Source: an uncultured Alphaproteobacteria bacterium (GTDB lineage Bacteria > Pseudomonadota > Alphaproteobacteria > Caulobacterales > Aquidulcibacteraceae). From it: a DNA stretch of 37,147 nucleotides. This document shows positions 20,912 through 24,356 of this stretch, in pieces (within the stretch, counting starts at the first letter, position 1; each line of letters opens with the position of its first letter). The translations under genes were made by a program, and so were the position numbers. The DNA lies in assembly GCA_902826035.1 (NCBI GenBank), contig CADEDG010000016.1:1-37147 (forward strand), in the 5' to 3' direction. A model generated the notes under the pieces. That model was not told the DNA's origin. It made no database searches and saw only the letters and a list, made by a program, of their open reading frames with translations.

Positions 20912-21328
20912 TTAGGTGGCGGTGAAGCTGATGACGCCCGCCGAGACGAGCGAGATAGAGAACGCGGCCTCGCCGTCGTGGTCGCCAGAATATTCCAGCG
21001 CCTCGATCAGGAACGGCCCCTGCAGAACGCCGAAGGACGGGATCACCAGCTGAAAGGTCCGCGAGCTCTGCGCGAAGAACACAGACTGTAGCGTGGCATC
21101 GGAAGCCGCATCTTTGAAAACGCCCGCGCCCGATACCGACGCCGACTTAACGCCCGCGCCCGCGATCAACTCGCGCCAGGCGCTGGTGCTTTCTCCGGAT
21201 GTGCCGTCGACGCTTTTCGCGTTGAGCGCGATAGTCTTGGCGCGAATGCCTGCGACGGTTGTGAACACCTCCGGCCCGCCCCCGTCGCCGATCTTAATCA
21301 GGACGTCGCGGCCTTTCTGACCTGCCAT
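20912..21328 (-). CDS. GTA major tail tube protein (gp9, TP901-1 family)
   Basis: 138 residues. Begins MAGQKGRDVLIKIGDGG, with VAGIRAKTIALNAKSVD and a beta-rich C-terminus (FLIEALEYSGDHDGEAAFSI), matching phage major tail proteins of the TP901-1 type. It polymerises into the tail tube. A strong ribosome binding site (AAGGAG, 6 nt before the ATG) agrees with a highly made structural protein. It stands 9 nt after gp8. Confidence 0.92.
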   Translation of the reverse strand: MAGQKGRDVLIKIGDGGGPEVFTTVAGIRAKTIALNAKSVDGTSGESTSAWRELIAGAGVKSASVSGAGVFKDAASDATLQSVFFAQSSRTFQLVIPSFGVLQGPFLIEALEYSGDHDGEAAFSISLVSAGVISFTAT

Positions 21329-22063: not shown

Positions 22064-22624
22064 TCACAGCCGCATCGGCGCGAATGGGGCCATCAACGCG
22101 CGCGCCGCCTCCGGGATTTGCGTTGCGCCCTGGCGCGTCTCGTAGAGTGCGGCGACGATCTGCATCGTCGCGATCCGCAGCGCCACCGGCAACGACGCGG
22201 CGCTCGCCGCATAACCAGCGTCGTATTCGATTTCGATCCCGCCCGCGGAACGCAGCGTCGCCGGCACACCGGCTTCGAACACCAGCCGCGGCCGATCACC
22301 CGCGCCTTCGAGACGATAGCGCGCAGGATCGATGACGCTCTGCGCGCCATTGTCGGCGATGAGGCGAACCGCGACGATGCTGGTGACGGGCCCGAGCCCC
22401 AGCACCGCACCGCCAACGGAATCGCGGCGCCAGATATCGAGGCTCTCGCGCACGCGCCTGGTGATCAGAGCGCGCCCGCACCCGACCTCCACAGCTTCGC
22501 GAGCGGCGCCGATTAACGTGGTGATGAGAGTGTCCTCGGCGGTCTGGTCGATGCGCAGAAACAGCTTCGCTTCGGCAAGCGTGATCGGTTCGCTCGCCGG
22601 AGATGTAAGTATGGTGATGGTCAT
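22064..22624 (-). CDS. GTA head-tail connector/adaptor (gp6)
   Basis: 186 residues. LTSPASEPITLAEAKLFLRID at the start and EIEYDAGYAASAASLPVALR in the middle are the signature of the phage gp6-like connector (phiE125 gp8 family). It binds under the portal. It is separated from the capsid gene by 102 nt, the only sizeable gap in the cluster. A long palindrome fills that gap and its end lies 8 nt before the gp6 ATG, so its ribosome binding site is next to, or inside, a strong RNA fold. Confidence 0.92.
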   Translation of the reverse strand: MTITILTSPASEPITLAEAKLFLRIDQTAEDTLITTLIGAAREAVEVGCGRALITRRVRESLDIWRRDSVGGAVLGLGPVTSIVAVRLIADNGAQSVIDPARYRLEGAGDRPRLVFEAGVPATLRSAGGIEIEYDAGYAASAASLPVALRIATMQIVAALYETRQGATQIPEAARALMAPFAPMRL

Positions 22625-22632
22625 TTCGAACT

Positions 22633-22721
22633 CGGCAGTCGACAGTCGGCGATAGGCAGTCGCTAGTCAGCGGCAACAGCTGGGAATGACCCGACTGCCG
22701 ACCGCCGACTGACGACTGCCG
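22633..22721. repeat. Long imperfect inverted repeat between capsid and connector genes
   Basis: The arms are 22633-22669 and 22687-22721 with a 17-nt loop. After reverse-complementing one arm, about 31 positions match, with four mismatches and a 2-nt gap. Each arm itself contains GGCAGTCG twice and CAGTCG three times. It does not code and is unlike the surrounding sequence. It could be an RNA hairpin acting after the capsid message, or a REP-like dispersed palindrome inserted in the only free gap of the cluster. Confidence 0.85.
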
Positions 22722-22726
22722 CGAGA

Positions 22727-23929
22727 TCAGCTCACTGCGAAGCGCAGCACCTTGATGGCGTCGAAATTCTGCACGCCGCCGCCTACGCGCTTGGTGACGT
22801 AGAACATCACGTAGGGCTTGTTGGAGTACGGATCGCGCAGCACGCGCACGCCGGCGCGATCGACGATGAGATAGCCGCGCTGGAAATCGCCGAACGCGAT
22901 CGAGTTCGAACTCGCCGCGATATCGGGCATGTCTTCCAATTCGGTGACTGGGTAACCCAGCAAGGTGGCGCCGCCGCGATCGTTCGGCTCCCAGATGTAT
23001 TGGCCCGACGCGTCTTTCAACTTGCGCACCGCGGAGACGGTTTTTCGGTTCATGACGAAGCGACCGTTTTGCCGGAACTGCGCCTTCGGCGCATACACCA
23101 AATCGATGATCTTATCGACCGGCGAACTGGCGGCGAACGCGCCGGCCACACCCGTCGCGATGTAGCCGATCTGTCCCCAAACATGGCTCGCGTCGGCGAT
23201 CATGGTGTAGTTCAAGAATCCCTTGGGCTTGTTCACGCCATCGCCATTGACGAACACGGCGCGCTCCTGGCCAGCGAACGCATCTTCAACTTCCGTGGCG
23301 ATCCATTCCTCGAGATTGACGAAGGCGTCGTCGAGCAGCGCCTGGGTCGCGGCGAGGTTGGCGTAAAGTTCGGCGGTGGGGAAATCGAGCAGCGCCAAAG
23401 TCGGCGATGTCGTTTCCGTGCGCGCTCCGGTTTCCGCCGCCCAGCCGGAACCGGAGGCGGTGAGACTGATCGGCTTGCGGAACAAATTGGCGCTTGTGGT
23501 GCGAATGCCGGAAATCTCGCGCATCGGCGAAGCAGCGCGCAGGCGGCTCTCGATCAGCCGGTCAAGTTCGGCCGGCGCAAGGTGGCCTCCGTCGGCGGCG
23601 ACGCCGACCGAAAGCGCCTTGGCTTCGAACTGCCCGAGTTGGGAGATGTCACCCCGGCGCACATAGGCGCTCCATGCCGATTTGTGTTCGGACTCCGCGG
23701 GCTCGGCCGCCAACGCGGGGCGGCGGCCAGCAAGGGCCGCACGTTCGAGCAGCGATTTCTGCTCTGTCAGCGCACGGTCGATACGCTCGACCTTCTCTTC
23801 CAGCAGGACATCGCCGCGCCTTTTCTCGATCGCGTCGAGGCGCGCATCGTTCGCCGCTTTGAATTCCTCGAATGCATGCATCAACGCATCCTGGCCGCCC
23901 GATGGCGCGGCCTTGGTTTCTTTTCTCAC
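22727..23929 (-). CDS. GTA major capsid protein (gp5, HK97 fold)
   Basis: 400 residues. The N-terminal part (about 5-75) is a charged coiled coil (HAFEEFKAANDARLDAIEKR), the scaffold-like delta region removed by the prohead protease; the HK97 core follows (SAYVRRGDISQLG, then ISGIRTTSANLFRKPI, and C-terminal FGDFQRGYLIVDRAG). The start is set at GTG 23929 because GAGGAG lies 6 nt upstream and the gp4 stop lies just before it; an in-frame ATG at 23959 would overlap gp4. It forms the head shell. The 3' end is followed by a long palindrome. Confidence 0.94.
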   Translation of the reverse strand: MRKETKAAPSGGQDALMHAFEEFKAANDARLDAIEKRRGDVLLEEKVERIDRALTEQKSLLERAALAGRRPALAAEPAESEHKSAWSAYVRRGDISQLGQFEAKALSVGVAADGGHLAPAELDRLIESRLRAASPMREISGIRTTSANLFRKPISLTASGSGWAAETGARTETTSPTLALLDFPTAELYANLAATQALLDDAFVNLEEWIATEVEDAFAGQERAVFVNGDGVNKPKGFLNYTMIADASHVWGQIGYIATGVAGAFAASSPVDKIIDLVYAPKAQFRQNGRFVMNRKTVSAVRKLKDASGQYIWEPNDRGGATLLGYPVTELEDMPDIAASSNSIAFGDFQRGYLIVDRAGVRVLRDPYSNKPYVMFYVTKRVGGGVQNFDAIKVLRFAVS

Positions 23930-23935
23930 GATAAT

Positions 23936-23941
23936 CTCCTC
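23936..23941 (-). promoter_or_regulatory. Ribosome binding site deciding the capsid start
   Basis: GAGGAG, 6 nt before GTG 23929, overlapping the region just upstream of the gp4 stop. It favours the GTG start over an ATG ten codons further upstream. Confidence 0.75.
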
Positions 23942-23942
23942 T

Positions 23943-24356
23943 TCAAGCAGCGCGGCCAAGCCCTCGCGCCAGGGCCAGCCGCGCCTGCGGCTGCATCGGT
24001 TGCGTCACGATCGACACTTCCAGAAGCTCAATTTCCTCGATCACGCGCCCAAGCGCGTGCTTGTGCGCGACCAGCGGCACAAACCCGATCGACAGTCCGT
24101 CGCCGCCGCGCGCGAGCAAGCGCCGCGCCCGCGATGCGCCAGGCTGGTCGTCGCTGATGGCGCCGCGCACATAGAGCCCGCGTCCGTCCTCGCGCGCGAA
24201 ATCCCAGTATCCCGCCAGCAGACGCCGTTCGTGCTCGACCAGCATGGGCAGCTTTTCACGGCGTCGCTTCAGGCTGACCCCAAAGGCGCCGGCGCGCACC
24301 ACGTCGCCCATCTGATCGGCGATGCCGAACAGGGAAGCGTAGCCCTCGATCATCAT
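23943..24356 (-). CDS. GTA prohead protease (gp4)
   Basis: 137 residues, HK97-type S78 prohead protease. Starts MMIEGYASLFGIADQMGDVV, with catalytic His42 (VEHER) and Ser89 (GDGLSIGF), and the LLEVSIVTQP segment near the end. It trims capsid N-termini during head maturation. The start at 24356 overlaps the gp3.5 stop as ATGA; a longer upstream frame exists but would run over gp3.5. It is compact for the family but keeps the core and active residues. Confidence 0.92.
   Translation of the reverse strand: MMIEGYASLFGIADQMGDVVRAGAFGVSLKRRREKLPMLVEHERRLLAGYWDFAREDGRGLYVRGAISDDQPGASRARRLLARGGDGLSIGFVPLVAHKHALGRVIEEIELLEVSIVTQPMQPQARLALARGLGRAA

Follow-up and report, generated by a model that had tools for sequence, protein, structure and literature searches.

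A dispersed heptamer-repeat palindrome in the gp5-gp6 gap of an alphaproteobacterial gene transfer agent cluster, and recurrent hairpins at the same position in relatives

In phage T7 the sole terminator for the phage polymerase, Tphi, lies directly after capsid gene 10, and partial read-through of it lowers the expression of the head and tail genes that follow (PMC5592923). The intercistronic hairpin of the puf operon in Rhodobacter stabilises the upstream mRNA and sets the RC:LHI ratio (PMC10253847). Within the gene transfer agent (GTA) cluster of C. crescentus, terGTA consists of three GC-rich repeats of 150 bp, which contain inverted repeats and terminate strongly, and GafZ permits partial read-through of them (PMC11150451). 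As to dispersed elements, Bradyrhizobium REP and Br-REP sequences are intergenic palindromes that form stem-loops in transcripts (PMC5082802).

The palindrome considered here shares one or more properties with each of these. Like Tphi it comes after the gene for the most abundant capsid protein, but Tphi is a phage-polymerase terminator, whereas the present hairpin is a dispersed host repeat without a T-run. It is, as the puf hairpin is, an alphaproteobacterial hairpin separating cistrons of a single operon; the puf hairpin is not presented in that work as a dispersed repeat, however, and a comparable effect of the present hairpin is putative. Like terGTA it is GC-rich inverted-repeat DNA inside a GTA cluster; terGTA, however, is found after the first gene, gtaT, and not after the capsid gene, is made of 150-bp direct repeats, and has no shown relation to the family described below.

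The palindrome and its setting

The window (the whole stretch of 37,147 nucleotides that was analysed) carries an HK97-type GTA cluster on its minus strand, with Pfam matches for the terminase, portal, protease, capsid, connector, head completion, tail tube and GTA_TIM tail proteins; relevant coordinates are collected in Table 1. The gp5-gp6 gap (22625-22726) is 102 nt long and is nearly all taken up by the palindrome, while the remaining measured junctions of the cluster are of 11 nt or less and mostly overlap, so that its description in the initial annotation as the only free gap is borne out for the window. Lying between the capsid and head-tail connector genes, the palindrome occupies the position that a Tphi-like post-capsid attenuator would have. 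A second HK97-type capsid gene, 42% identical, is present in the same genome (L079; G000:C23:25866-26834) and perhaps belongs to another prophage.

Table 1 Features of the GTA cluster in the window that bear on the gp5-gp6 gap.
Feature	Position	Strand	Basis
GTA major capsid gene gp5, HK97 fold	22727..23959	-	ORF; PF05065, Pfam E 5.6e-84
Capsid gp5 stop codon	22727-22729	-	ORF
Spacer, 5 nt, capsid stop to hairpin	22722..22726	-	sequence and fold
Heptamer-repeat palindrome; long hairpin in gp5-gp6 mRNA	22633..22721	-	MFE, z, period 7, dispersed copies
Spacer, 8 nt, hairpin to gp6 ATG	22625..22632	-	sequence
gp6 ATG	22622-22624	-	
gp6 head-tail connector	22064..22624	-	ORF; PF05135 (Phage_connect_1), Pfam E 7.3e-12
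gp9 tail tube; its borders also collect hairpins in relatives	20912..21328	-	PF06199; junction counts

Folded as RNA, the palindrome has an MFE of -70.5 kcal/mol, compared with -43.9 +/- 3.95 kcal/mol for dinucleotide shuffles (z -6.7), and none of 200 shuffles was as stable. Pairing runs from 22633 outwards to about 22721, in stems of 9, 9 and 8 bp together with a smaller 4+4 bp inner stem. The long palindrome that the initial annotation had read from the letters is therefore real, as is its placing directly after the capsid stop and 8 nt before the gp6 ATG; its long pairing also stands, although by our own count there are 34 pairs rather than about 31. The repeated units it had noted in each arm are likewise present, GGCAGTCG being found twice per arm. 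The arm unit is the 7-nt GGCAGTC, with GGCAATC variants, and autocorrelation shows a peak at 7; in an alignment of three orthologous heptamer copies, which is to say of few sequences, the arms can slip by one heptamer.

Although this GC-rich stem-loop is what an intrinsic terminator would have, a T-run is absent directly 3' of the stem, where AGTTCGAA-ATG follows, and the window copy was for this reason rejected as a consensus intrinsic terminator. No clear Shine-Dalgarno sequence was seen in the 8-nt spacer AGTTCGAA before the gp6 ATG. A search of Rfam gave no match at the gathering score, the only hits being sub-threshold matches to microRNAs and sRNAs, and inspection of the element by eye showed none of the CcrM sites (GANTC) that are familiar from Caulobacter intergenic repeats.

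A dispersed family with seven-nucleotide repeat arms

In the window genome (G000) there are 11 BLAST matches to the palindrome and 27 exact GGCARTCGGCARTCGG sites, corresponding to about ten loci, while the reversed pattern, used as a control, gave 0. The genome search for repeat-rich palindromes proposed in the initial annotation thus yields the multiple copies in one genome that are expected of a dispersed repeat family. The same GGCARTCGGCARTCGG is present in 13 of 30 congeneric genomes and in 0 of 30 genomes from elsewhere in the family. One copy lies between mraY and murD (L011:1455-1534, on G000:C32) and another between fliO and fliP (L002:1505-1587, on G000:C125), all four being genes that we take to be such from inspection of their translations by eye. 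Copies between mraY and murD were found in G000, G029, G009 and (at contig ends) G020; in G018, G012 and G014 that gap is short and element-free. It is accordingly well supported that the palindrome in the GTA cluster is one copy of a dispersed hairpin-forming family with 7-nt repeat arms, which lies between genes inside operons.

Chance or an assembly artefact might be suggested instead, as the window assembly is MAG-like (208 contigs) and several heptamer arrays are at contig ends. Against this, the gp5-gp6 gap of G029 is occupied by another member of the family, with 88% identity over 93 nt, and in view also of the result with the shuffles such an origin is scarcely credible.

The designation “REP-like dispersed element”, given in the initial annotation as one of two alternatives, holds in respect of dispersal, both in the genome and in the genus, but not in the strict sense of REP. 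A REP-associated tyrosine transposase (RAYT) is present in G000 (one) and G029 (two) but was not found in the heptamer carriers G003, G008, G009 and G028, the assemblies of G008 and G009 being incomplete; RAYT as mobiliser was rejected on the ground that it was not found in several carriers. In the copies inspected by eye, the feet of the palindrome showed no GTAG/CGTC tag. The likeness to the Bradyrhizobium elements is that of dispersed intergenic palindromes forming stem-loops (and, in the case of the element in the gp5-gp6 gap of G027, a resemblance by eye to Br-REP2), whereas the arms of the present family consist of 7-nt repeats in variable number, in addition to the difference as regards RAYT. 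Cyanobacteria have heptanucleotide repeats of the STRR type, in which 7-nt units stand in tandem in intergenic DNA; these are alike in unit length and location, but differ in unit sequences and hosts, and are mentioned only as a lead.

Period-7 palindromes built of other units, among them GAGTGGC, GGGCTTA, GTGACTG and GCGAATA, recur in several lineages, and one occurs in an unrelated control gap (L325), so that the architecture is broader than the genus; heptad palindromes are possibly a general class across several alphaproteobacterial lineages. In the literature searched, which took in few subscription papers, no description of heptamer palindromes in Alphaproteobacteria was found.

Some further repeats may be recorded here. 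Period-7 arms of other 7-nt units were seen in the L325 control gap, in L295 and in gaps of genus g16 (e.g. G144, G333). Three near-identical longer repeats of about 150 bp or more (L008, L009 and L010, on G000:C181, C166 and C25) carry GGCAGTC heptamers in one arm and resemble a MITE or an IS-derived repeat. In G003, a partial capsid match with in-frame TGA and TAG (L078; G003:C1:2358813-2359607) marks a decayed GTA cluster, and that genome holds many heptamer palindromes.

Hairpins at the capsid junction in relatives

Within the genus, heptamer palindromes occupy the gp5-gp6 gap in G000, G029 and G009, and other palindromes occupy it in G018, G020, G027, G004 and G024, those of G018 and G027 each being a multicopy repeat in the genome that bears it; the 45-nt gap of G014 holds no palindrome, and G026, G028, G012, G010 and G017 have no gap. 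The capsids of G018, G020 and G029 are 91-93% identical to that of the window and each is followed by a palindrome, yet the palindromes of G018 and G020 are unrelated in sequence to the window's, from which it follows that the sequence turns over while the hairpin stays. G018 keeps GCAATCGGCAGTC beside its other palindrome, probably as a remnant of a heptamer element.

When gp5-gp6 gaps of 40-250 nt were folded across the order, 47 of 65 had z<-3. Random co-directional gaps in that range of lengths, drawn from 20 arbitrary 20-kb regions of genomes belonging to the order, reached this in 13 of 91 cases (odds ratio 15.7, p 1e-13; by the Mann-Whitney test, p 8e-14); the p-values here and below treat genomes as independent and are for that reason too small. 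A fold preference in relatives, the lack of which the initial annotation had named among the points against regulation, is thus found. It should be added that the z<-3 cut-off was chosen after part of the data had been seen, as was the division of junctions used below, that the z-scores come from 50-200 shuffles and many of the genomes are MAGs, and that the gap sets are approximate, start codons having been placed by homology or at the nearest ATG and control genes called from ORFs and GC3 by a simple rule. The gp5-gp6 gap sequences fall into 33 clusters, comprising many unrelated families, of which 17 have a median z<-3.

When genes were placed by profile, strong hairpins were found at gp5-gp6 in 54 of 102 genomes, at gp8-gp9 in 15/93, at gp9-gp10 in 12/93 and at gp4-gp5 in 5/80, and at none of the gp3-gp4 (0/51, where gaps are inflated since gp3.5 lies there), gp6-gp7 (0/54) and gp7-gp8 (0/54) junctions; apparent gp10-gp11 gaps were discarded as being the gp10.1 gene. 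Junctions touching the capsid or tail-tube gene thus have 86 hairpins in 368, the others 0 in 159 (p 1e-15), and with gp5-gp6 left out the figures are 32/266 and 0/159 (p 1.5e-7). Counted by genus, which gives the fair figure, they occur at gp5-gp6 in 10 of 26, at gp8-gp9 in 6 of 23, at gp9-gp10 in 3 of 22, at gp4-gp5 in 1 of 27 and at the rest in 0.

In three genomes of one genus (G048, G050 and G051; L131, L128 and L127) the tail-tube gene is preceded, at gp8-gp9, by large palindromes or hairpins, and the gp5-gp6 gap is of <10 nt. In G147, G173 and G359 (L204, L222 and L182) and in genus g35 (L154, L155, L158 and L171) the gp5-gp6 gap holds an extra 0.5-2 kb, and in g35 the capsid gene is followed by an ORF of about 124 aa that often starts MGSPSPE-.

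The same spot is structured in other clusters. Hairpins lie between gp5 and gp6 in Caulobacter sp. AP07 (L259, z -13.0) and Brevundimonas pishanensis (L248, z -6.9), both of the same order, and in Rhizobium sp. Leaf306 (L310, z -5.5), apparently outside it; in L295, an alphaproteobacterial MAG also apparently from outside the order, a period-7 palindrome of another unit is followed by seven T (z -9.0), and G165 likewise has a hairpin with a T-run there. Among HK97-type phages with related capsids, the capsid gene is followed in nine of nine by a gap of 41-157 nt that holds a stem-loop, those of Bcep176 and PARCL1pr having T-rich tails, although as whole-gap folds the stem-loops are mostly modest (z -1.1 to -5.1). 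Matches among viral contigs were left out of the comparison, most of these contigs having the look of GTA clusters from bacteria. In the literature searched, again with subscription papers largely outside the search, hairpins at the GTA gp5-gp6 junction were not found described. One further GTA capsid, 61% identical to the window's, is in a cyanobacterial assembly (L251, the Pseudanabaena biceps O153 record) and is probably contamination from an alphaproteobacterium.

The main rival to a functional explanation is that the gap is a neutral landing site, dispersed palindromes entering junctions where spacing is irrelevant, the capsid and connector genes needing no translational coupling. That several unrelated families occupy the gap, that it also takes the larger insertions, and that the heptamer family is found at mraY-murD (with element-free gaps there in some relatives) and at fliO-fliP would all be natural on such an account, as would the absence of a gap from some relatives. 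However, gp6-gp7 and gp7-gp8 (54 genomes for each) are free of hairpins, which are instead concentrated at the borders of the two high-copy genes, and in phages and other GTAs this position is taken by compact stem-loops or terminator-like hairpins; we consider neutral landing rather unlikely, if still to be taken seriously.

What the hairpin may do

Recurrent hairpins of unrelated sequence, far more frequent than in random gaps or at other GTA junctions, are what would be expected if a hairpin at this position were useful, or at least specially tolerated, and they suggest that the spot may set the amount of capsid relative to the proteins encoded next. The reading that we favour, and regard as somewhat probable, is that the palindrome is a dispersed element sitting in a position-conserved, sequence-free hairpin slot, where it would act as an intercistronic boundary or attenuator on the GTA late transcript. 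The hairpin could guard the capsid message against exonucleases at its 3' end, stop or pause part of the RNA polymerases, or both, and it would separate translation of gp6 from that of the capsid, so that far more capsid would be made than gp6 and the products after it. The lack of a T-run in the window copy makes classical intrinsic termination less likely than lost translational coupling combined with stabilisation, pausing or partial termination. Of the two alternatives put forward in the initial annotation, therefore, dispersal is supported and regulation gains support from recurrence at the site, while any effect on transcript level, stability or translation, and through these on the capsid:connector ratio, is something that we infer.

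There are points on the other side. The heptamer family's presence at mraY-murD and fliO-fliP, two sites at which a ratio of this kind is not evident, tells against an attenuator, and the gp5-gp6 gap is <30 nt and has no hairpin in about a quarter of the measured genomes (five of them in the window's genus); as several relatives are without a gap, the slot is not essential for the persistence of a GTA cluster. It could also be that the hairpin is a transcription barrier rather than a ratio device, silencing the cluster unless an anti-terminator of the GafZ type is present. The terminating repeats of the C. crescentus cluster, partly bypassed by GafZ, offer a precedent (PMC11150451), but their position after gtaT is a different one, and a block placed only after the capsid gene would leave capsid expressed, so that we think a barrier of this kind improbable.

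If the attenuator reading is extended, the late operons of GTAs and HK97-type phages may have hairpin slots bordering the high-copy capsid and tail-tube genes, in which selection acts on structure and position but not on sequence and which are refilled time and again by whatever palindromic repeats are active in the host, selfish repeats being in this way co-opted as regulators of stoichiometry; this we put forward tentatively, as a possibility short of an even chance. From a single transcript a GTA operon must yield hundreds of capsid subunits for every dozen connectors, and in the literature searched no description was found of how that stoichiometry is reached. A structure that is conserved in position and free in sequence is easily missed by alignment. 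If the hairpins are functional, a domesticated phage would have taken dispersed palindromic repeats into use to set levels of expression.
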